Shown here one piece after another: positions 28,498 through 39,195 of a DNA stretch of 46,940 nt. Source of the stretch: a virus; IMG/VR virus record IMGVR_UViG_3300050821_002632, positions 1-46,940 of that record. One strand, given 5' to 3'. The position numbers and the translations under genes were made by a program. The notes under the pieces were generated by a model, which worked only from the letters and a program-made list of their open reading frames with translations, was not told where the DNA came from and ran no database searches. Position 1 is the stretch's first letter. Each line of letters begins with the position of its first letter.

Positions 28498-29826
28498 TCA
28501 ATATCCGCCGCTTACACCTGAGGCCGGCACTGATAGCCCGGTAATAGCTGTATTGGCGTTCGGGAAGTGACACCCGAGATTCCCGCGGAACTCTAGGAAC
28601 GCCTGGAACGCATCCGTGTAGATTCCTGAGGAATTCACCACGCGGTTAAGGATGCTGCCAGTGCGGTCATCGAAACTCAGCTTCCTTGCAGTGACCTTCA
28701 GCATGCTGTCCTTGTTGACGAAGTACAGCGTATCTCTCGGTGCATCGGTGTCGATAACCCACGGAATACCTTCAAACTCGTAGGCCGTATATCCCAGGTC
28801 CATCTTCATTGCTGTACCGTTGAATTGCTTCAAGGTCCAGCCCATATCTGCGTAGGCGTGAAGTTGAGCGCCGTGGCTCCAGATGCGCAACTTGTTGAGA
28901 TCAACTGCGCCACGAGCCTGTTGGATCAGCCAGATACCACGACGGATATGATCTCTAGTCAGGGCTGGCGTTGAGGTCAGCGCAATGACGTTAGCATTGT
29001 ACTGAGGGTTGTTCGCCCGGTTGATGTTCTGAAAGTTCGTGGCGAAGGTGCCGTTATCGATGATGACCTTAAGGCCACTCATGGCCTTGTTGAAACTATC
29101 TGCGGAGCCAGAGGCCGAGCCAACCGAGGAGACGATTCCGTCTCCCACTGCGATAGCTGTGCCGGCTGAAGCAGGGCCGATGGTAATGGTAACGTTGCCG
29201 CCTGCTGAGGTGTTCTGAATCGTGCCGGCAGCACCTAAGGTGTTCTGAACCGAGACGATCTGAGCGGAGTACTTAACCGGAAGCGCTGTTCCCGTCAGCA
29301 CGTTGATGAACTGACCGGGCCTCAAGTATCTTGCACCGTCGCCGGTTCCTGTCACATCAAGTACGGTATTGACTGTCGTACTTGGTGTGGTGGTGTTATT
29401 CATCTTCCCCAAGATGCCCGTACCGTCGAGGAAGCTGTAATAGTTGAGTTCCTTGATGGCCTGAACTACACCATTACGGACGTTGAAGGCCAGAGACTTG
29501 ACGTAGTTCGTCGCATCTCCGCCACCACCTGCATCGAGAGCAGCGCCGGTAAACTGAATGGTTTTAGCATAGGAGTAGAAGCCTACCAGGGCGCGATTGA
29601 CGTGCTCGGCATCTCCACCGGGGAGAGCGCCGCCATCGGCATACCATGCATGAGCACCATTAGGAGCCATGTGAACCGGGATCTCTAATCCACGGTTGCT
29701 GATCATCGTGCCGGAACCTTCAAAGACATCGTTCCAGAGCACGGGAGCGGAGTTAAATTGCTTGTCAACTCTGGGAGCAAATACAATCTTGAAAATCGGA
29801 TCGGCTGCGGAAAGATCCCAAGCCAT
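28498..29826 (-). CDS. Major capsid protein (442 aa)
   Basis: ATG at 29826. Length, the position after the scaffold-like gene, and the pattern of segments suggest an HK97-fold capsid protein of the N4-gp56/P22-like kind. An N-terminal arm (AADPIFKIVFAPRVDKQFNSAPVLWNDVFEGSGTMISNRGLEIPVH) leads to a helical spine (ATNYVKSLAFNVRNGVVQAIKELNYYSFLDG). A Gly/Thr-rich inserted domain follows (about 150-245). The C-terminal part (LRIWSHGAQLHAYADMG...FEGIPWVIDTDAPRDTLYFVNKDSM) has the 'F.g.p...D.......y.ld' feature. This is the main shell protein. Confidence 0.8.
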   Translation of the reverse strand: MAWDLSAADPIFKIVFAPRVDKQFNSAPVLWNDVFEGSGTMISNRGLEIPVHMAPNGAHAWYADGGALPGGDAEHVNRALVGFYSYAKTIQFTGAALDAGGGGDATNYVKSLAFNVRNGVVQAIKELNYYSFLDGTGILGKMNNTTTPSTTVNTVLDVTGTGDGARYLRPGQFINVLTGTALPVKYSAQIVSVQNTLGAAGTIQNTSAGGNVTITIGPASAGTAIAVGDGIVSSVGSASGSADSFNKAMSGLKVIIDNGTFATNFQNINRANNPQYNANVIALTSTPALTRDHIRRGIWLIQQARGAVDLNKLRIWSHGAQLHAYADMGWTLKQFNGTAMKMDLGYTAYEFEGIPWVIDTDAPRDTLYFVNKDSMLKVTARKLSFDDRTGSILNRVVNSSGIYTDAFQAFLEFRGNLGCHFPNANTAITGLSVPASGVSGGY

Positions 29827-29855: not shown

Positions 29856-30758
29856 TTATCTTGCTGAGAGAGCTTTCTTGAGGTCCGCAACCATTCCGGC
29901 AGTTCCCCAATTGGGATCTTCACCGGGAGCGGTTTGCTGTGCTGTCCCGTTTACGTTCTCAGCGGCGGGAGTGATATCCCTGCTGCCTCGGGATTCCACT
30001 TCGGACCTGCGTTCGTGCTCTGTCTTTGAAGCGGCCTTGGTATCAGCAGTCACCAAGGAACATGCCTTGGCGAAGTGACTCGATAGGTCCACGTAAACAC
30101 CCTTGGCGACACGATCTCGGGAACCAGTGTCTTTCCATAGCAGCTCGTTGGTCTTGAGACGGATATGATCTTTCGTCAGCTCAGGAGTTTCCTTGGGCAG
30201 CTTGGCCAGCAATTCATCCACGGCGGAGTTATATCCGTTGAGGATCTGGGTATTCTGCTTCTCGGTGAGTTCCTGATTCTGACGGCTGATCAAACCTTCG
30301 AGCTTACTCGTGAGATCGTTTAGCTTGGATTCGATACGTGGATCGGTGGAGGAGGCAGTGCTGCTCGCAGTGCCGGGCGGCTGAGTTCCTTCAGGATGCT
30401 CCCGTTGCCAGTTCTCGTACCATTTATCCGACATGTGCTCCAGGATCTTCTTATACGTTGTCGGATTGTTTCTGGCGATCTCGTTAAAGAATACGTCTGG
30501 ATTACTATCCAGAATGCCAGGCAGGCGATTAAGAACTTCCATGGCCTGCTTGTATTGAGACGCATTCTGAGGGGTGATACCGAGATCGGCCAGGGTACGC
30601 AGAGCTGAGGCGTCCGCTTCGGTGAATTGAGGAGTAACTTGAGCTGGTGTTGATGGTATCTCAGGGGCTGCTGGCGTAGCCTGTGGTTCAGCCGGAGGTG
30701 CAGGCTTTGCAGCGGCATTCTCTAATTCAGCGAAGGTAACGCTTGGGGAGTTGCTCAT
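29856..30758 (-). CDS. Scaffolding-like protein (300 aa)
   Basis: ATG at 30758. A Pro/Ala-rich N-terminus (residues 15-45) precedes helical, strongly charged sequence, including SKLNDLTSKLEGLISRQNQELTEKQN, a coiled coil. The C-terminus ends in NWGTAGMVADLKKALSAR. This layout and the place immediately before the capsid gene are typical of podovirus scaffolding proteins that guide shell assembly and then leave. The sequence family is not certain. Confidence 0.65.
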   Translation of the reverse strand: MSNSPSVTFAELENAAAKPAPPAEPQATPAAPEIPSTPAQVTPQFTEADASALRTLADLGITPQNASQYKQAMEVLNRLPGILDSNPDVFFNEIARNNPTTYKKILEHMSDKWYENWQREHPEGTQPPGTASSTASSTDPRIESKLNDLTSKLEGLISRQNQELTEKQNTQILNGYNSAVDELLAKLPKETPELTKDHIRLKTNELLWKDTGSRDRVAKGVYVDLSSHFAKACSLVTADTKAASKTEHERRSEVESRGSRDITPAAENVNGTAQQTAPGEDPNWGTAGMVADLKKALSAR

Positions 30759-30761
30759 CGG

Positions 30762-31982
30762 TTAGGAGTTAGCAACAGAATGACGGTAACTGTCAAGAGA
30801 TTTCTGTATCTGTGTTACCGTTCCGTCAAAGCCTACCGTAGAGTTACGAAATATCTTAACGGATGGGTACCAGCCAGAAGTATCCTCCCTACCCCATTTG
30901 CAGTCCTGATAACCGCCAAGGATAAGCCACGTATCTTTCCCCATCGCGCCAGCCAAATGCACAATTGAAGTATCCACGGTAATAACAAGATCCAGATTTG
31001 AAATAATAGACGCTGTATCATTCCAACTCCTTATCTCAGGTTCCCGGCAACCCTCGGGAGCCTTGTAGCCTTTCTGTAAGCTGATCCACTCCACATTTCT
31101 ATTGGAGATTAACTGTGCGGCTTGGTCTAGCTTCAGTGAACGGAACTTGCGAACATCCATAGCTTCTCCGCATTCCCAGCAGATACCGACTAAAGGTTTA
31201 CCGTTGCGAGGTAGCGGGACTCTCTTGGGATCTCCTTCCAGATAGGTACCCGGAAACCACGGCTTATCTACCTTGAGCCATTGTAGCAATTCAAAGATGC
31301 TGACCCAGTAATCATAGGGATGTTCCTTATCATAGAACACTACGTCATCCTTGAGGCGGGGATTCTTCTCTTCTTCGTCCATGTGACACCAGGGATGATC
31401 CTTTAGATATTCTCCGACATCAGGAAAGGTGCAGTAACTTACGATAGCGCCCATCTCGTGGAGTTTCAGGTAGAAACGGAATAGCCAGAAAGCGTCTCCC
31501 CTTCCGCCTTCCGTGATAACCATGATGCGCTTGCCATTAAGATCTTCACCTTTCCATTCCTGAACTCCCTTAGGAGCGATCCACTGTTTGGATTCACGAT
31601 AGCGGCTGCAGAGAGGCCATGCCTCAAGCCATCTTCCTTTTCGGATCAGCTCCTCCGCATAGATGTGGCCCATCATCTGATCGTTCGGAAGGATCTGATG
31701 AGCCCTTTGAATGTAAGGGAATGCCTCTTCGTGCCTGCCGTATTGTCTAAGGATACAGGCATAGTTGAGATAGGTTTTCGCATTCATCCAAGGAAGAGAA
31801 TGAACCGCTCTCTCCGCATATCGAAAAGCCTCATCGTCCTGTTCCAGTACGTTGTAGTTGCTACAGAGATTCATCAGAGCTACCGGATCGAGAGGACATT
31901 CCAGGAGCCGGCTGAACTCTATGGGGATGCGCTGGCCTACTTCTTTCTTGGTGTAGATGAGATGACCACCTGCGGATTTCAT
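30762..31982 (-). CDS. TPR-containing glycosyltransferase (406 aa)
   Basis: ATG at 31982 overlaps the methyltransferase stop (ATGA). Residues about 30-130 hold two or three tetratricopeptide-like helix pairs (ALMNLCSNYNVLEQDDEAFRYAERAV; TYLNYACILRQYGRHEEAFPYIQRA). The C-terminal half resembles GT9/SPINDLY-type glycosyltransferases: GKPLVGICWECG, then NLDLVITVDTSIVHLAGAMGKDTWLIL, and WYPSVKIFRNS. It probably transfers sugar to protein or surface glycans. Wedged with a TylF-like methyltransferase between portal and scaffold, it may modify virion proteins. Confidence 0.7.
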   Translation of the reverse strand: MKSAGGHLIYTKKEVGQRIPIEFSRLLECPLDPVALMNLCSNYNVLEQDDEAFRYAERAVHSLPWMNAKTYLNYACILRQYGRHEEAFPYIQRAHQILPNDQMMGHIYAEELIRKGRWLEAWPLCSRYRESKQWIAPKGVQEWKGEDLNGKRIMVITEGGRGDAFWLFRFYLKLHEMGAIVSYCTFPDVGEYLKDHPWCHMDEEEKNPRLKDDVVFYDKEHPYDYWVSIFELLQWLKVDKPWFPGTYLEGDPKRVPLPRNGKPLVGICWECGEAMDVRKFRSLKLDQAAQLISNRNVEWISLQKGYKAPEGCREPEIRSWNDTASIISNLDLVITVDTSIVHLAGAMGKDTWLILGGYQDCKWGREDTSGWYPSVKIFRNSTVGFDGTVTQIQKSLDSYRHSVANS

Positions 31983-32497
31983 TTTCTCACCATAGCGAAG
32001 CCGTTCTCATCGACCTGCATTCTGCCTCCGAAGTAAGTATCCATGATTAGATTGATGCCCTTACAGGCGGGATTGACGTAATCATCCGCCACCAGGATTC
32101 CTTGAGGGACTAGACAAGGCCACAGGATATCGATAGCCTCCTTGGCGCTCCCGTAGAGATCACAATCGATATAGATCATGCTGAAATACCGTACCGATTG
32201 AGCGATAAGAGGTAGCGTATATTTGAATCTACCTGGAACGGGAACGATGTTAGTCCCTTCAGCTAATGGCATGATCTCATCCCACGAGGTAAGGAAATCG
32301 CCTTCCTTGTGGCCATCGATCTCGGTAGGTTCGGGCATACCTCGAAAGGTGTCGCAGGCGTAGACGATCTTCTCTTTACAGATCGTACCGATCCTTAGAG
32401 CGGAATCCAGTTTCCAGCTACCGCATTCGATAATGTCTCCGGGAAGATCGTTAGCTAATCTGGCGTAACGGATGATCGGATGTTCACTGCTGGCCAT
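31979..32497 (-). CDS. TylF/MacO-type O-methyltransferase (about 172 aa)
   Basis: I take ATG 32497 (14-base overlap with the portal end); the frame is open to ATG 32629, but that part overlaps the portal's Gln/Asn-rich tail. Family marks: GDIIECGSW (SAM-binding loop), ACDTFRGMPEP, MIYIDCDLYGSAKEAI with the metal-site acidic residues, and GILVADDYVNPACKG. TylF-like enzymes methylate sugar hydroxyls using SAM and Mg2+. It is coupled to the glycosyltransferase, suggesting a joint glycan-modifying pair. Confidence 0.75.
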   Translation of the reverse strand: MASSEHPIIRYARLANDLPGDIIECGSWKLDSALRIGTICKEKIVYACDTFRGMPEPTEIDGHKEGDFLTSWDEIMPLAEGTNIVPVPGRFKYTLPLIAQSVRYFSMIYIDCDLYGSAKEAIDILWPCLVPQGILVADDYVNPACKGINLIMDTYFGGRMQVDENGFAMVRK

Positions 32498-35400
32498 TGC
32501 GGCGGCGTTGCTGGGCGGAGTGGGATTGACCTCGTTGGCCAATATGCGATTGGTTACCGCCGCTGGGTTGGGGAAGGTTAGGCTTCGCCGCTTGGCCCTT
32601 GACGCCCCTGTCATGCTTGAATTGCTCATTGTTATTCTTGTTTCCTTGAGGAGATTGTTGCTGATTGCCAGACTGCTGACCTTGTTGCTGACCGGATTGT
32701 TGCGCCATGAGGCCCTGAACTTCGGATACTGTAGCCATGTTCTGCATGTGCTGAATGAAGTGAGTATGAGCCGCTACCTTGACTGGAGGAGGCTGACTGT
32801 CCCAATCGTCGGAGTTCATCCAATCCCGCAGGGTTTTCATGTGCGCCTGATCGTTTTGTACGAAAGCGATAGGCTGAGGGAATTGACCGGATTGCTTGCC
32901 TTGATCGATCTCTTTCTGCTGTACCTTGGCATCGGAGGAGAACTCATCGAGATCGGGAGAGAGTTGATAGAGTTCCAGCGCTTTGCGCCTTACCTGAGGA
33001 GGTAGCTGCGGGTTGAATGCACCTACCGCGATAGCTTGGTTGAAACTCTGTTGCTGCTGATAGTCCAAGGGGATGATATTCGCCCTCATCTTGAACTTCT
33101 CTTTATCGAGCATCTCCCCGCGTAACTGCTTGAACTCCCACTGTCCGTTAGGCCCCATGATGGCCGAGACACGATCATCGAGCCAGTTCTCCGCGTCGAT
33201 CTTCAGCATCTGCTGAGCCCACTTCTCATTCTCTTCCCGATACATCAACTGCAACGGTCCCAGCATGGATTGACTGGCCTGAGCGGCCTGTTGCTGGCCA
33301 CCGTAAGTATTGATCCCCGGTTCGTGCTGGCCTATAGCCGAGGGAGATACACCGGAATTGAATTGCATATTCTGCATACGTGTGCTGCGCCAGTTCCATA
33401 CGTCTGTACTTAGTTGTCCTCCGGGGAGCCACTTGGCTGCTTGGTCGATGGACTTACCGCCAAGGTTCTTCAGTTCCACCACGTAGCCAGCATCATTGAT
33501 AATGTTGTTCTTATCAAGGCGCTGAGCATCAGCAAGAAGCAGAGGTAAAGAGTTATAGTCAACGTGTCGCAGAATGAGACGATCAACTTCGTCTAGTAAC
33601 ATTTGATCTGGAAGTAAATCATCGTCTCCATCTCCCCAAAAACGACCTTCTACATGGATGTGCTTGAAATGAGTCCAATGATCGTCCATGGATTCGTTTC
33701 GCGTGGTCAGCAGACAATCATCTGCTTTAGCTGCATACATTCCATCGGGGAATTTCTTTCTGAGATCAGAATCAGATTGATACATCGAAGGACGAATCCA
33801 ACCCTCTATGAGAGGTACCTTGGCCTGAGTGACGGCTCGCTCGTACCAGCCGGGGTATTGCGTGGGATCGGATGGCAGCTCAGGAATGGCCTGCTGGTAG
33901 ATCAAGCCGATATCCTCTGAAGCATTTACGGTATCTCCCGGCATAGTATCGCCAGCGAAGTTCGCCTTGGGAAACGTAGCCTGTAAGCCTACCTTGTCCA
34001 CCATTCGGACTCTCAGAAGATAAGGAGCCTGCCACAAATTCTTTATTGAGGACCTGACGTAGACCTCGAAGGGCCAGACGACTTCGCAGCTTTCTTGTCC
34101 TCTTGGATATGCGGTCTTGCCGGAGAGCTTAGGTACTGTTGCAGTTCGAGGGGCTGTATGCTGCACGGGGACAGGGGAAGACGGGCCGCATTGCGGGCAA
34201 ACAGGTTCCTGACCCTCACCGCCCATTCCGCAATTGGGACATTGCCAGGTTCCTTGGTCAAGTTGAACCTCCACATCTTCGTAGACTGGAGCGGTAACGA
34301 AACCGTAGCGGGGATCGACGGAATAATAAGAGTAACGGAAGCTATTGCCGTAGAGCCGCATGTTCTGGGCTTCCATGGCGCGGATGGCGTCATAGCCGAT
34401 GTTCTCCTTGTTTATGTTGAGAGCGGTCCTAGCTGCTTCAGCGACGCCCTGAGAGGTGGGATCGGGACCATTCGGCTGAGCAATGAACTCAGGAGCTGTC
34501 TGAACGTACATGGCAGTGCCGTAACGGATGTAGCTGCGGTAATAGTTGGAGGCAAAGCTATATTCAGCTTGGTTGACTCCAATCGTATCGAAGGACATTC
34601 CCACGTCGGACAAGATATTGTCATGATATCCGCAGTTGTGAACGAAAATGCCGCAAGAGAGCGCGATATTACTAGTACGCGGTACAGTCACATCATAGAC
34701 TTCACGATCTCCAACATCTACAACTGAAATGACTCTGTGGTTCTTGAGTTTCCTTCGCTTGTCCCAATAAGCCGCCACAGCAGAAGCCTGCTTCTCTCGA
34801 TTCTCAGGCTTACTCCACCATTCACGAATACCTTCCGCTCGCGCATTGTTGAACTCTTTGGTCTTTCTAACTTCACGATTACGCTGAACAAATAAATGAT
34901 TGTCAGCAAACATCTGCTTGGTGCGCTGCGAAGCATTCTTACGATTCTCGGGATTCTTCCAGAAATTCCGTTTATGATTGGAGATTCGCGCCCTGCCATG
35001 AGCGCTTAACTTAGAAGCGTGTTCTTTTGGAGTTAATACCTCAAGGTTCTCAGGGACGTTATTACGAGTGTTGTCATCCTTATGATGAACGTGTTTCCCT
35101 TTCGGATAAGCTCCAAATACATCAGTAGCTACCCAGCGATGCTCACTTTCAAATCGGGCATCAAAAGGCTGAAAGATAGCTCCATACGTGGCGTCAGCAC
35201 CACTGCGGTAGAGTGGAACAAGTCTATCTCCAGTCTGCAATTCCCCCGCTTCCATGTATCCGGCAAACCATGTCAGTACCCTATGATCCTTGGTGCAGAT
35301 GAAAGAATCTCCGTTATCTAGCGTTACTTCTACACAGGGCTTGATGCCTGTTTTAAGGCAGCGCTCAATCTGTACGGGAACAATGCGGCCCTGCCGGTTA

Positions 35401-35735
35401 TCAAATCCGTAACTCCAGACAGGAAGGTGTTCACTGGATAGTTGTTTGAGAGTTACGTCCCGATTATCAAGTAGGTGTATTTTAGTATCGCCGTCCAGGC
35501 AGAAGAACAGGTGGTTGCGGAACCATTTTCTGTGGAGCTGGATTTTTTCATATTGACTCTGATAGTAGAAGTGATCGAGCAGCCACTTGATGCGTTTCTG
35601 CGGAGTGTCCCACTGCGGATAACTACCATAGGGATCTTTATTCTTATCTCGGGTCTGAAGATCTCGGATAGGCTTATCGGCACCCTTGAAGAGATCGGTG
35701 ATCTTTCCGGCTAATCCACCTATGATACCGCCCAA
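32484..35735 (-). CDS. Portal protein with in-frame HNH intein (1083 aa precursor)
   Basis: ATG at 35735. The precursor carries a 289-aa intein at residues 79-367. The spliced product would be 794 aa, within the large podovirus portal range. Extein features include YRKWFRNHLFF / CGYHDNILSDVG around the insertion, long helical and beta parts, GPLQLMYREENEKWAQQML, and a Gln/Asn-rich C-terminal tail. A four-Cys ribbon (CPNCG...CPQCG), encoded near 34180-34250, is an unusual addition. The portal forms the dodecameric DNA channel at one capsid vertex. Its position between terminase and scaffold fits. Confidence 0.75.
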   Translation of the reverse strand: MGGIIGGLAGKITDLFKGADKPIRDLQTRDKNKDPYGSYPQWDTPQKRIKWLLDHFYYQSQYEKIQLHRKWFRNHLFFCLDGDTKIHLLDNRDVTLKQLSSEHLPVWSYGFDNRQGRIVPVQIERCLKTGIKPCVEVTLDNGDSFICTKDHRVLTWFAGYMEAGELQTGDRLVPLYRSGADATYGAIFQPFDARFESEHRWVATDVFGAYPKGKHVHHKDDNTRNNVPENLEVLTPKEHASKLSAHGRARISNHKRNFWKNPENRKNASQRTKQMFADNHLFVQRNREVRKTKEFNNARAEGIREWWSKPENREKQASAVAAYWDKRRKLKNHRVISVVDVGDREVYDVTVPRTSNIALSCGIFVHNCGYHDNILSDVGMSFDTIGVNQAEYSFASNYYRSYIRYGTAMYVQTAPEFIAQPNGPDPTSQGVAEAARTALNINKENIGYDAIRAMEAQNMRLYGNSFRYSYYSVDPRYGFVTAPVYEDVEVQLDQGTWQCPNCGMGGEGQEPVCPQCGPSSPVPVQHTAPRTATVPKLSGKTAYPRGQESCEVVWPFEVYVRSSIKNLWQAPYLLRVRMVDKVGLQATFPKANFAGDTMPGDTVNASEDIGLIYQQAIPELPSDPTQYPGWYERAVTQAKVPLIEGWIRPSMYQSDSDLRKKFPDGMYAAKADDCLLTTRNESMDDHWTHFKHIHVEGRFWGDGDDDLLPDQMLLDEVDRLILRHVDYNSLPLLLADAQRLDKNNIINDAGYVVELKNLGGKSIDQAAKWLPGGQLSTDVWNWRSTRMQNMQFNSGVSPSAIGQHEPGINTYGGQQQAAQASQSMLGPLQLMYREENEKWAQQMLKIDAENWLDDRVSAIMGPNGQWEFKQLRGEMLDKEKFKMRANIIPLDYQQQQSFNQAIAVGAFNPQLPPQVRRKALELYQLSPDLDEFSSDAKVQQKEIDQGKQSGQFPQPIAFVQNDQAHMKTLRDWMNSDDWDSQPPPVKVAAHTHFIQHMQNMATVSEVQGLMAQQSGQQQGQQSGNQQQSPQGNKNNNEQFKHDRGVKGQAAKPNLPQPSGGNQSHIGQRGQSHSAQQRRRNGQQ
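34635..35501 (-). mobile_element. Intein with HNH homing endonuclease, inserted in the portal gene
   Basis: The first residue is Cys (CLDGDTKIHL, block A). Block B is NGDSFICTKDHRV with the TxxH motif, block F is REVYDVTVP, and the end is VHN followed by Cys (+1), all needed for protein splicing. The centre holds an HNH endonuclease domain (HRWVATDVFGAYPKGKHVHHKD, then NLEVLTPKEHA). Two NUMOD-like DNA-binding repeats follow (NFWKNPENRKNASQRTKQMF and EWWSKPENREKQASAVAAYW). It should splice itself out and spread by cutting intein-free portal genes. Confidence 0.85.
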
Positions 35736-36455: not shown

Positions 36456-37092
36456 TATTGATTATCTCCACACCTTTTCTCCAATCCACCCAGTCGTCAT
36501 CTTCCCAAACTCCGCAGACGTCTCCGTTGGCTACAGGCTTCTGCATCACTCTACACCAACCGGTAGCAGAGTCCCACTTGGTTCCGTTATCGACAAGATA
36601 ATAGTCACAGTCGTCTCCGTTGTTTCCACCGCCGCAATTTGCACCGGAGTATTCAAGTCCAGGCTTGGGAGCATTGATCCATCCGAATCCAAGATTATCG
36701 GGATCACGGTAAGGGAAGGGTCGATACCGAACTTCTCCCGTATTCGGTTCTCCAGGGTCGGCTTGTCCGCAAACAGGCCAGTATTCGATGGGTTTGACAT
36801 CGGCAGTAGTCTCCTTGGGCCAGATGAATTTCTTTACCGGAATGTTTGGTCCCATGTAACCACAGGTGGCTGCCGACTTGTTATAGATCGTACAGTGATA
36901 GCAGGAACAGGGGATATCGTTCATCTCTTCCGCTGTGAGATATCCCACTTGGCCTGCATCCAGAACGGGAGCTGAGGTATCTTTCACTCCAACGGTGGAG
37001 TTAGCCATCCGTAACGCATTAACTTTGCGAAGTTGCTTATCATCGTAAAGAGGGAATCCACCTTCGGAGATCTTAAGAGAACTGCGGTCCAT
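36445..37092 (-). CDS. Cysteine-rich phage protein (215 aa)
   Basis: ATG at 37092 overlaps the terminase end by 20 bases. It has about ten Cys, including PCSCYHCTIYNKSAATCGY, CGGGNNGDDC and WCRVMQKPVANGDVCGVWEDDDW. The first cluster (C-x-C-x2-C...C) could bind a metal or a cluster. The middle is Pro/Tyr-rich (PFPYRDPDNLGFGWINAPKPG). I do not recognise the family. Its place between terminase and portal suggests a head or packaging role. Confidence 0.6.
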   Translation of the reverse strand: MDRSSLKISEGGFPLYDDKQLRKVNALRMANSTVGVKDTSAPVLDAGQVGYLTAEEMNDIPCSCYHCTIYNKSAATCGYMGPNIPVKKFIWPKETTADVKPIEYWPVCGQADPGEPNTGEVRYRPFPYRDPDNLGFGWINAPKPGLEYSGANCGGGNNGDDCDYYLVDNGTKWDSATGWCRVMQKPVANGDVCGVWEDDDWVDWRKGVEIINNGR

Positions 37093-38569
37093 GACGGGAA
37101 GGTATCACCTGTCTTGTGGATTTGAAAGGAGTTCTTGATAGCCTGTTAAGCCTTGCTACCTTCTGATCAGCCTGTTCCTTGGCTTGCCAGAATACCTTGC
37201 TCATTATCGGCAATGAAGGATTATCCCATTTCTTGGCTGCGACGATATCTGCCGGTGTCGGCCTGAAAGTGTGGATAGCGTAACGGATTCCATCAGGCAT
37301 ATGAGAGTGTTCGTGGTTCGTGGTGAAGTCGTTCTTGGGATTCCCCGACCTATCCTTGGGCCATTTATAGCCGCTGAGTTCCGTTATAGTATTAGTGCAT
37401 GATTTGGCCACGAAATATCGCGGTGCCCCTTGGGTATTGTTGAAGGGATGAGTCAATCTCGGGTCTACGTGCATGTATTGTTCTACTTTGAACAGGCCGG
37501 GACGACGCTCCTTGATGGCCGGGACTCCATAGATACCGTGTTCGTCTAGTTCTTGGGCTGCGGCTCGCTGGGCGTAGTCATAGGCCAACCCTTCAAGCGT
37601 GCGGCCTTCAAGATGATGTTGTAACTCTGTAGCGATTGGAGCAATTCGGAGATCGACTCCATAGATTTCCGCGAACTGATAGAGTGCTCCGTCAGGACTG
37701 ATAGAAATAATTGGCAGAGCCCAAGGGTCTCCTTCGCTACCAGAGCCAATGTCCATACCCACGATACAAGGCCAGCCAGCAGGAGGCTTATCAGAATCAC
37801 CGAAAATAGCCCAATGCTGCGTATCATCGTAGACATGAGTTAGCTCCGTAAATTCCTTGTATACCAAGTCGGTGAAGTCGGTGAAATGACCCAAAGAGAA
37901 GCGTTCGTACCAGTCGGGGGGATAGAGAGCCTTCTGGCGATCCAAATATCCAGCTTCGAGGAAAGTATTATCAGCAGATCGGGCTCCCACTCCGTAGAAA
38001 AGACGCTTCCACTCCTCTTTCCTGTTGGGATCAAAGAAGTGCCTCCACATGTAATCATGACCGGCAGGGTTGCTACTGAGTCGGATGATCTTTCTGACGC
38101 TTGATTTCCTTCGGAGACGGCCAATCAACAGTAAGAATACCTTCTCTTCTATCTCTGAAGCCTCATCGATATAGGCTTTGGATAGATTAAGAGAACGGAT
38201 ATGGCCGAATACCTTGGGATCAGTGATATCCAAGTGCCGGAAGAGAACGGGATGACCGTTATTAAAGGTCCATATCTTCTTACTCTCCGACCACTCACCA
38301 TAATCTGCGGGAACCAGCTCCAGGAAGATCCGCATGGTCGTGGATTCAAGAGCTGGCATGTTAAGACGGCCTACCAGGCTCATGCCATCCGGTTCTGCGA
38401 GGGCGTTGAGGATACAGCAGGTCATCAGAGTAACTGTTTTGGCCGAACCCTCTCCACCAACGAAAGCGGTACCGAAGTGCTTACTGAGCATGAACTCCTT
38501 GGCCTTGGGGAGTTTCTCCAGGCCGGCAATGGCATCCTGAAGGGTTATTTCTCCGGCGTAGTAGCCCAT
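37073..38569 (-). CDS. terL: Terminase large subunit (498 aa)
   Basis: ATG at 38569. ATPase motifs: Walker A GGEGSAKT at 38-45 and Walker B KAYIDEA with Asp135-Glu136. The C-terminal RNase H-like nuclease shows GMDIGSG (Asp273), YDYAQR (Asp331) and MPDGIRYA (Asp426). Length is normal for the family. It packages concatemeric DNA into the prohead through the portal and cuts it. It overlaps its neighbours slightly in the late leftward operon. Confidence 0.9.
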   Translation of the reverse strand: MGYYAGEITLQDAIAGLEKLPKAKEFMLSKHFGTAFVGGEGSAKTVTLMTCCILNALAEPDGMSLVGRLNMPALESTTMRIFLELVPADYGEWSESKKIWTFNNGHPVLFRHLDITDPKVFGHIRSLNLSKAYIDEASEIEEKVFLLLIGRLRRKSSVRKIIRLSSNPAGHDYMWRHFFDPNRKEEWKRLFYGVGARSADNTFLEAGYLDRQKALYPPDWYERFSLGHFTDFTDLVYKEFTELTHVYDDTQHWAIFGDSDKPPAGWPCIVGMDIGSGSEGDPWALPIISISPDGALYQFAEIYGVDLRIAPIATELQHHLEGRTLEGLAYDYAQRAAAQELDEHGIYGVPAIKERRPGLFKVEQYMHVDPRLTHPFNNTQGAPRYFVAKSCTNTITELSGYKWPKDRSGNPKNDFTTNHEHSHMPDGIRYAIHTFRPTPADIVAAKKWDNPSLPIMSKVFWQAKEQADQKVARLNRLSRTPFKSTRQVIPSRHGPQFS

Positions 38570-39195
38570 TCTCTTCTCATGACGGCGAGCCTACCCTCTA
38601 GCGTAACCTTCCAACCTTTATCGATAGCGTAGGCAATAGCCAGAGTAGCCTTGGTGGGGATATCATCCATCACCACAACCTTAGCACCCTTGGACTCCAC
38701 GGCCTTGAACTCCGATAAGCCGTGTTCCAGATTATCCGAGGTATCTAGAAAAGCGAAATCGATATTGAAGTGAATCATATCGAGGGCCATAAGAGATTCC
38801 TTACAGATGAAGGTGATCTCCCCCGATAGGGCTTTCTTATCTCGAATAGCCTTGATGGCTAGATCGATGTGGGATTGATCCATATCAATGCACCAGAGAT
38901 GACCACCCTGTGTTTTATAAAGCCACTCTGCGATCCGCAAGGTGCTCCAGCCATCTCCGGCCTCCGCATCGGGATGAGTTGATCTCATGCAGCCCGTCTC
39001 TACGATAATGAGAGGACGATCTTCCTGTTTCCAGAACTTATCCAGGATAGCAACGACTTGTTCTCCAGGGCTTAATGTTTTGGTCATCTGTGAGGTCCTG
39101 GTGCCCTGCGAGGAGATGCCGACATCTGTGGAAGGGAACGATTTTGGATCATCGACCCGCAAGAGGTTAGCAATAAACATAGGAATAGTAAGCAT
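38545..39195 (-). CDS. SAM-dependent methyltransferase (216 aa)
   Basis: ATG at 39195 lies one base after the regulator's TGA; a shorter start at ATG 39087 is possible. Class I methyltransferase marks are ETGCMRS (66-72, SAM loop), DGWSTLRIAEWL and HLWCIDMDQSHIDLA (acidic residue after the second strand), and IDFAFLDTSDN. The substrate is unknown; the type resembles small-molecule or sugar methylases rather than DNA methylases (no DPPY or PC motif). First functional gene after the late promoter. Confidence 0.7.
   Translation of the reverse strand: MLTIPMFIANLLRVDDPKSFPSTDVGISSQGTRTSQMTKTLSPGEQVVAILDKFWKQEDRPLIIVETGCMRSTHPDAEAGDGWSTLRIAEWLYKTQGGHLWCIDMDQSHIDLAIKAIRDKKALSGEITFICKESLMALDMIHFNIDFAFLDTSDNLEHGLSEFKAVESKGAKVVVMDDIPTKATLAIAYAIDKGWKVTLEGRLAVMRREWATTPEK

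Follow-up and report, generated by a model that had tools for sequence, protein, structure and literature searches.

A predicted homing intein with an HNH domain in the probable portal gene of a podovirus-like phage

Is the segment that interrupts a candidate portal gene in IMG/VR virus record IMGVR_UViG_3300050821_002632 a homing intein, and what would its presence mean for the phage? The window analysed is the whole stretch of 46,940 nucleotides (positions 1 to 46,940 of that record). Its minus strand carries an open reading frame at 32484-35735 that encodes 1083 residues from a TTG start, and residues 79-367 of this product form an in-frame segment of 289 residues (34635-35501, minus strand) that starts with CLDGDT, ends with GIFVHN and is followed by CGYHDN. 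The segment is open throughout, with neither stops nor frameshifts, and the flanking exteins of 78 and 716 residues would give a spliced protein of 794; the boundaries and spliced length given in an earlier note on this DNA are correct to the base and residue. The parts of the gene are:

35502-35735, minus strand: N-extein, the first 78 residues of the portal from the TTG start, ending in ...RNHLFF; uninterrupted homologues in 20 loci
34635-35501, minus strand: predicted class 1, HNH-containing intein of 289 residues; Pfam, NCBIfam, PHROGs and exact empty sites
35172-35501, minus strand: N-terminal splicing (Hint) part, intein residues 1-110 (end approximate), with Cys1 and TKDH at 70-73; TIGR01445
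35016-35141, minus strand: HNH_3 nuclease domain, intein residues 121-162; Pfam 3.6e-14 with the intein alone
34746-34976, minus strand: basic linker, intein residues 176-252, that contains two short W-x-x-PENR repeats; repeat score above shuffles
34635-34745, minus strand: C-terminal splicing (Hint) part, intein residues 253-289, YDVTV...GIFVHN; TIGR01443
32484-34634, minus strand: C-extein, the remaining 716 residues and the stop, starting at CGYHDN (+1 Cys); homologues and the fold of a relative

The residues of a class 1 intein are all present (Cys1, T70-K-D-H73, His288, Asn289 and the +1 Cys), as the earlier note had read from the sequence. Within the 1083-residue frame, Pfam Intein_splicing (PF14890, E 3.1e-13) and HNH_3 (E 1.8e-13) both score above their curated cut-offs, the latter bearing out the full HNH domain proposed earlier, and the NCBIfam models TIGR01445 (intein_Nterm, 1e-7) and TIGR01443 (intein_Cterm, 4.6e-5) also exceed theirs. 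PHROGs adds a match to HNH endonuclease (E 1e-9), so that the comparison with intein and HNH profiles that had been suggested gives the same answer in all three libraries. By sequence, the nearest solved proteins are inteins (4o1r, E 6.6e-5), and in the same type of search the HNH homing endonuclease 1u3e matches residues 117-175 (E 0.019). Judged by its sequence, then, the insert is an intein whose HNH domain looks intact.

Downstream of the HNH domain, two repeats share RNFWKNPENR-KNAS / REWWSKPENREKQAS, with a local score of 42 against 25 +/- 4.9 for shuffled sequences (2 of 500 shuffles reach 42). The earlier note had called them NUMOD-like; the repetition is real, but the label finds no Pfam counterpart, there being no NUMOD match to the intein up to E 10 in a search whose HMMER filters can drop weak ones. 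NUMOD DNA-binding modules are common in HNH homing endonucleases and are not required in them. The basic repeat region presumably contacts DNA.

A search of viral contigs with the C-extein as query returned 23 loci. In 20 of these, which are 61-74% identical across the C-extein, the N-extein runs straight into the C-extein, with no extra residues between them; intein-free portals with matching flanks, which the earlier note had proposed looking for, thus exist, none of the relatives has the segment as an ordinary domain, and the ends of the intein are fixed exactly by the uninterrupted relatives. At their empty site, LFF, LFY or LVF is followed by one of T, G, C or A and then by GYHD. The +1 position, at which splicing requires Cys, Ser or Thr, therefore varies in the portal family; Cys also occurs there in two intein-free contigs with the same site sequence (L012 and L013). 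The intein recurs in just one further contig, L002, which matches the window at 100% identity across 10,217 bp; it therefore represents the same phage, and a single allele is known. Using the intein itself as query retrieved no further copies from viral contigs, and the isolated-phage collection contained neither relatives of the window's portal nor a near DNA match.

Sequence families leave the identity of the host gene largely unnamed: among its close relatives, no Pfam or PHROGs match names a portal. Searching viral and genome contigs with a profile brought in distant homologues at 20-47% identity, one of which weakly matches the portal family phrog_156 (5.5e-5) and three the head-tail adaptor family phrog_332 (2.1e-5, also weak); the two sets of matches map consistently, to residues 63-186 and about 410-546 of the intein-free homologue L003. 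When the portal profiles were searched against PDB sequences, nothing but chance matches appeared, zinc ribbons among them. The fold was modelled on L003, which shares 72% identity with the spliced protein of the window, from 59 sequences (mean pLDDT 68, pTM 0.56); an earlier AlphaFold run with 15 close relatives reached pLDDT 40 and was discarded. The 50 listed PDB matches to the L003 model are all structures of portals, portal-tail complexes or neck/tail complexes from short-tailed phages (N4, SU10, Pa223, DEV, T7, P22 and others), the best among those listed having an E-value of 2.9e-17, and matches of the fold to viral models agree with a portal. Together with the weak distant PHROGs matches and the gene order, the L003 fold provides good support for a podovirus-type portal, the host gene that the earlier note had named. 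The seven genome-contig matches to the portal profile come from six Acidobacteria MAGs and one Granulicella genome, which weakly hints at Acidobacteria as the host phylum.

The order terL, two small genes, portal, scaffold and major capsid protein gene is common to the window and its relatives, and places the interrupted gene between the large terminase subunit and the scaffold and capsid genes:

37073-38569, minus strand: terminase large subunit, no intein; Pfam Terminase_3 7e-14, PHROGs
29856-30758, minus strand: putative scaffold; position before the major capsid protein gene, as in relatives, with no PHROGs family match
28498-29826, minus strand: major head protein; PHROGs 1.8e-27

Several further features of this module may be recorded. 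The portal family has a four-Cys zinc-ribbon-like insert (L003 residues 205-230; WQCPNCG...CPQCG in the window's C-extein) that is nearly invariant in the 59 portal members and weakly matches zinc-ribbon models. We know of no counterpart in described portals. Between portal and scaffold (30762-32629, minus strand), the window encodes a TylF-like methyltransferase (PF05711, 2.3e-13) together with a TPR protein that weakly matches GT9; these have the look of an accessory cassette in the head module, since L008 alone has relatives of the two at this position. The gap is a hotspot for extra genes, as L014 has an 813-codon open frame there (L014:6441-8879) and L022 and L012 a variable gene set. A second methyltransferase-like gene (38545-39195, minus strand; Methyltransf_24, 9e-6) lies directly upstream of terL and, among the fetched relatives, is found only in the identical contig L002. 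In the sister phage IMGVR_UViG_3300015199_000078, TerL carries a 261-residue intein (L019:1801-2583) at the Walker A motif (SYVGGEG / CGKSVALC), starting with CVAPETL and ending with WHHN; the window's TerL has no insert at this motif (GGEGSAKTV).

Projected onto L003, the intein separates residues 77 and 78, where a long predicted helix (44-78) ends, and is flanked by the nearly invariant F76 and G79 (L003 numbering). Conservation of the 11 residues around the site falls in the 87th percentile of the protein, in keeping with the conserved insertion point expected in the earlier note, and in distant members the aligned motif is FW-x-GLQY. One distant portal homologue of 1148 residues (L090) was considered as a further intein carrier and rejected, its extra length being mainly a C-terminal extension.

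Inteins found in phage genomes are less than 37% identical to that of the window, and the hosts of related ones comprise a P-loop protein of Bacillus phage SP-15, the RcKickapoo DNA polymerase, ribonucleotide reductases, dCTP deaminase and the LR756508.1 portal of T4 type. Across six divergent inteins that were aligned, Cys1, the T and H of block B and the terminal Asn are invariant, as are HNH residues H139, H140, D142, N147, N152, L153 and H161. The closest found, in SP-15 protein SP15_022 (L027:2501-3631), is 36% identical in the alignment and shares the +1 Cys and an HNH-like region, but is 377 residues long, sits in a P-loop host (GGIGLGKST after the junction) and reaches only 12.4 bits with HNH_3; as a query it finds SP-15 only. 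The intein of Rhodobacter phage RcKickapoo (L028:2501-3463) is 34% identical and has HNH_3 above cut-off at the same position, whereas its host is a family A DNA polymerase and its +1 residue Ser. Distant inteins occur in a ribonucleotide-reductase-like frame from viral contigs (L026) and, as the one match in a plasmid search, in GyrB.

Portal inteins are already known, and the window case adds to them. The earlier note regarded portals as much less common hosts; they are indeed uncommon, but this rarity was overstated. Six PORT inteins have been listed in cluster C1 mycobacteriophages (PMC5050341, Table 1). One such portal, ET08 gp79 (GQ303260.1), matches phrog_2833 and, above cut-off, TIGR01445, with its intein starting at about residue 505; it belongs to another portal family, with the insertion toward the portal's end rather than at residue 79 as in the window, and the profiles that it matches are of inteins from DnaB, ribonucleotide reductase and IF-2, with the HNH family absent from the PHROG matches. 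LR756508.1, the record of a 484-kb phage deposited without annotation, encodes a T4-type portal (Portal_T4 7.7e-52) whose one frame of 1387 codons contains three inteins (L030:527-4687). The third of these (L030:2501-3874) is of HNH type, 28% identical in the alignment and shares the splicing and HNH residues, but it lies in a T4 gp20-type portal at EGK/STLSQQ with a +1 Ser, and its HNH_3 score of 17.6 bits is below the curated cut-off. Because the known portal inteins differ in portal family and site, those of the window, the C1 mycobacteriophages and LR756508.1 look, from these comparisons, like separate invasions.

Taken together, these results make it very probable that an ordinary class 1 homing intein occupies a conserved motif of the portal in a podovirus-like phage. 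The 1083-residue precursor would be translated whole, and the Hint halves, whose residues are intact, would splice by the standard Cys1 / Asn289 / +1 Cys pathway into a 794-residue portal and a free 289-residue HNH endonuclease. The latter may nick or cut portal alleles that lack the intein, at LFF/CGYHD or close to it, whereupon recombination during co-infection would copy the intein into such an allele; once there, it could persist because imprecise loss from so conserved a motif would leave the portal defective. That splicing is finished before the portal ring assembles is plausible.

This last step invites a regulatory interpretation, in which conditional splicing, for example in response to redox state or temperature, delays nucleation of the portal ring and gates virion assembly, so that the element is not purely selfish. 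Conditional splicing is known among inteins, and the host here is an assembly protein interrupted within a conserved motif. The TerL inteins of phage Mic1 have also been suggested to act as sensors (PMC7156551). No sign of regulation emerged from this analysis, however, to support the gating of assembly that the earlier note had raised. With one phage carrying the intein and 20 relatives building virions without it, a sporadic selfish element fits better than gating, and we consider such a switch very unlikely. It is scarcely credible, in turn, that the insert is dead and non-splicing or is an ordinary portal domain: although a single allele is known, its splicing residues are all intact and the models of both splicing regions score above cut-off, no relative retains the segment, and an unspliced 33-kDa insertion between near-invariant portal residues should be lethal. 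An intron was set aside as an explanation, the window containing no Rfam RNA and the frame being open with the splicing residues in place.

The preferred reading, a homing intein, leaves the overall picture of inteins unchanged when taken alone. Since HNH endonuclease is the only function that sequence libraries give for the window gene, intein-bearing portals are open to mis-annotation as HNH endonucleases. To the short list of portal inteins the window contributes a new portal family and a new insertion site, at a near-invariant F-x-x-G at the end of an N-terminal helix; with at least three apparently separate insertions at different places, in the window, the C1 mycobacteriophages and a huge phage with a T4-type portal, portals can be read as a recurrent target of inteins.
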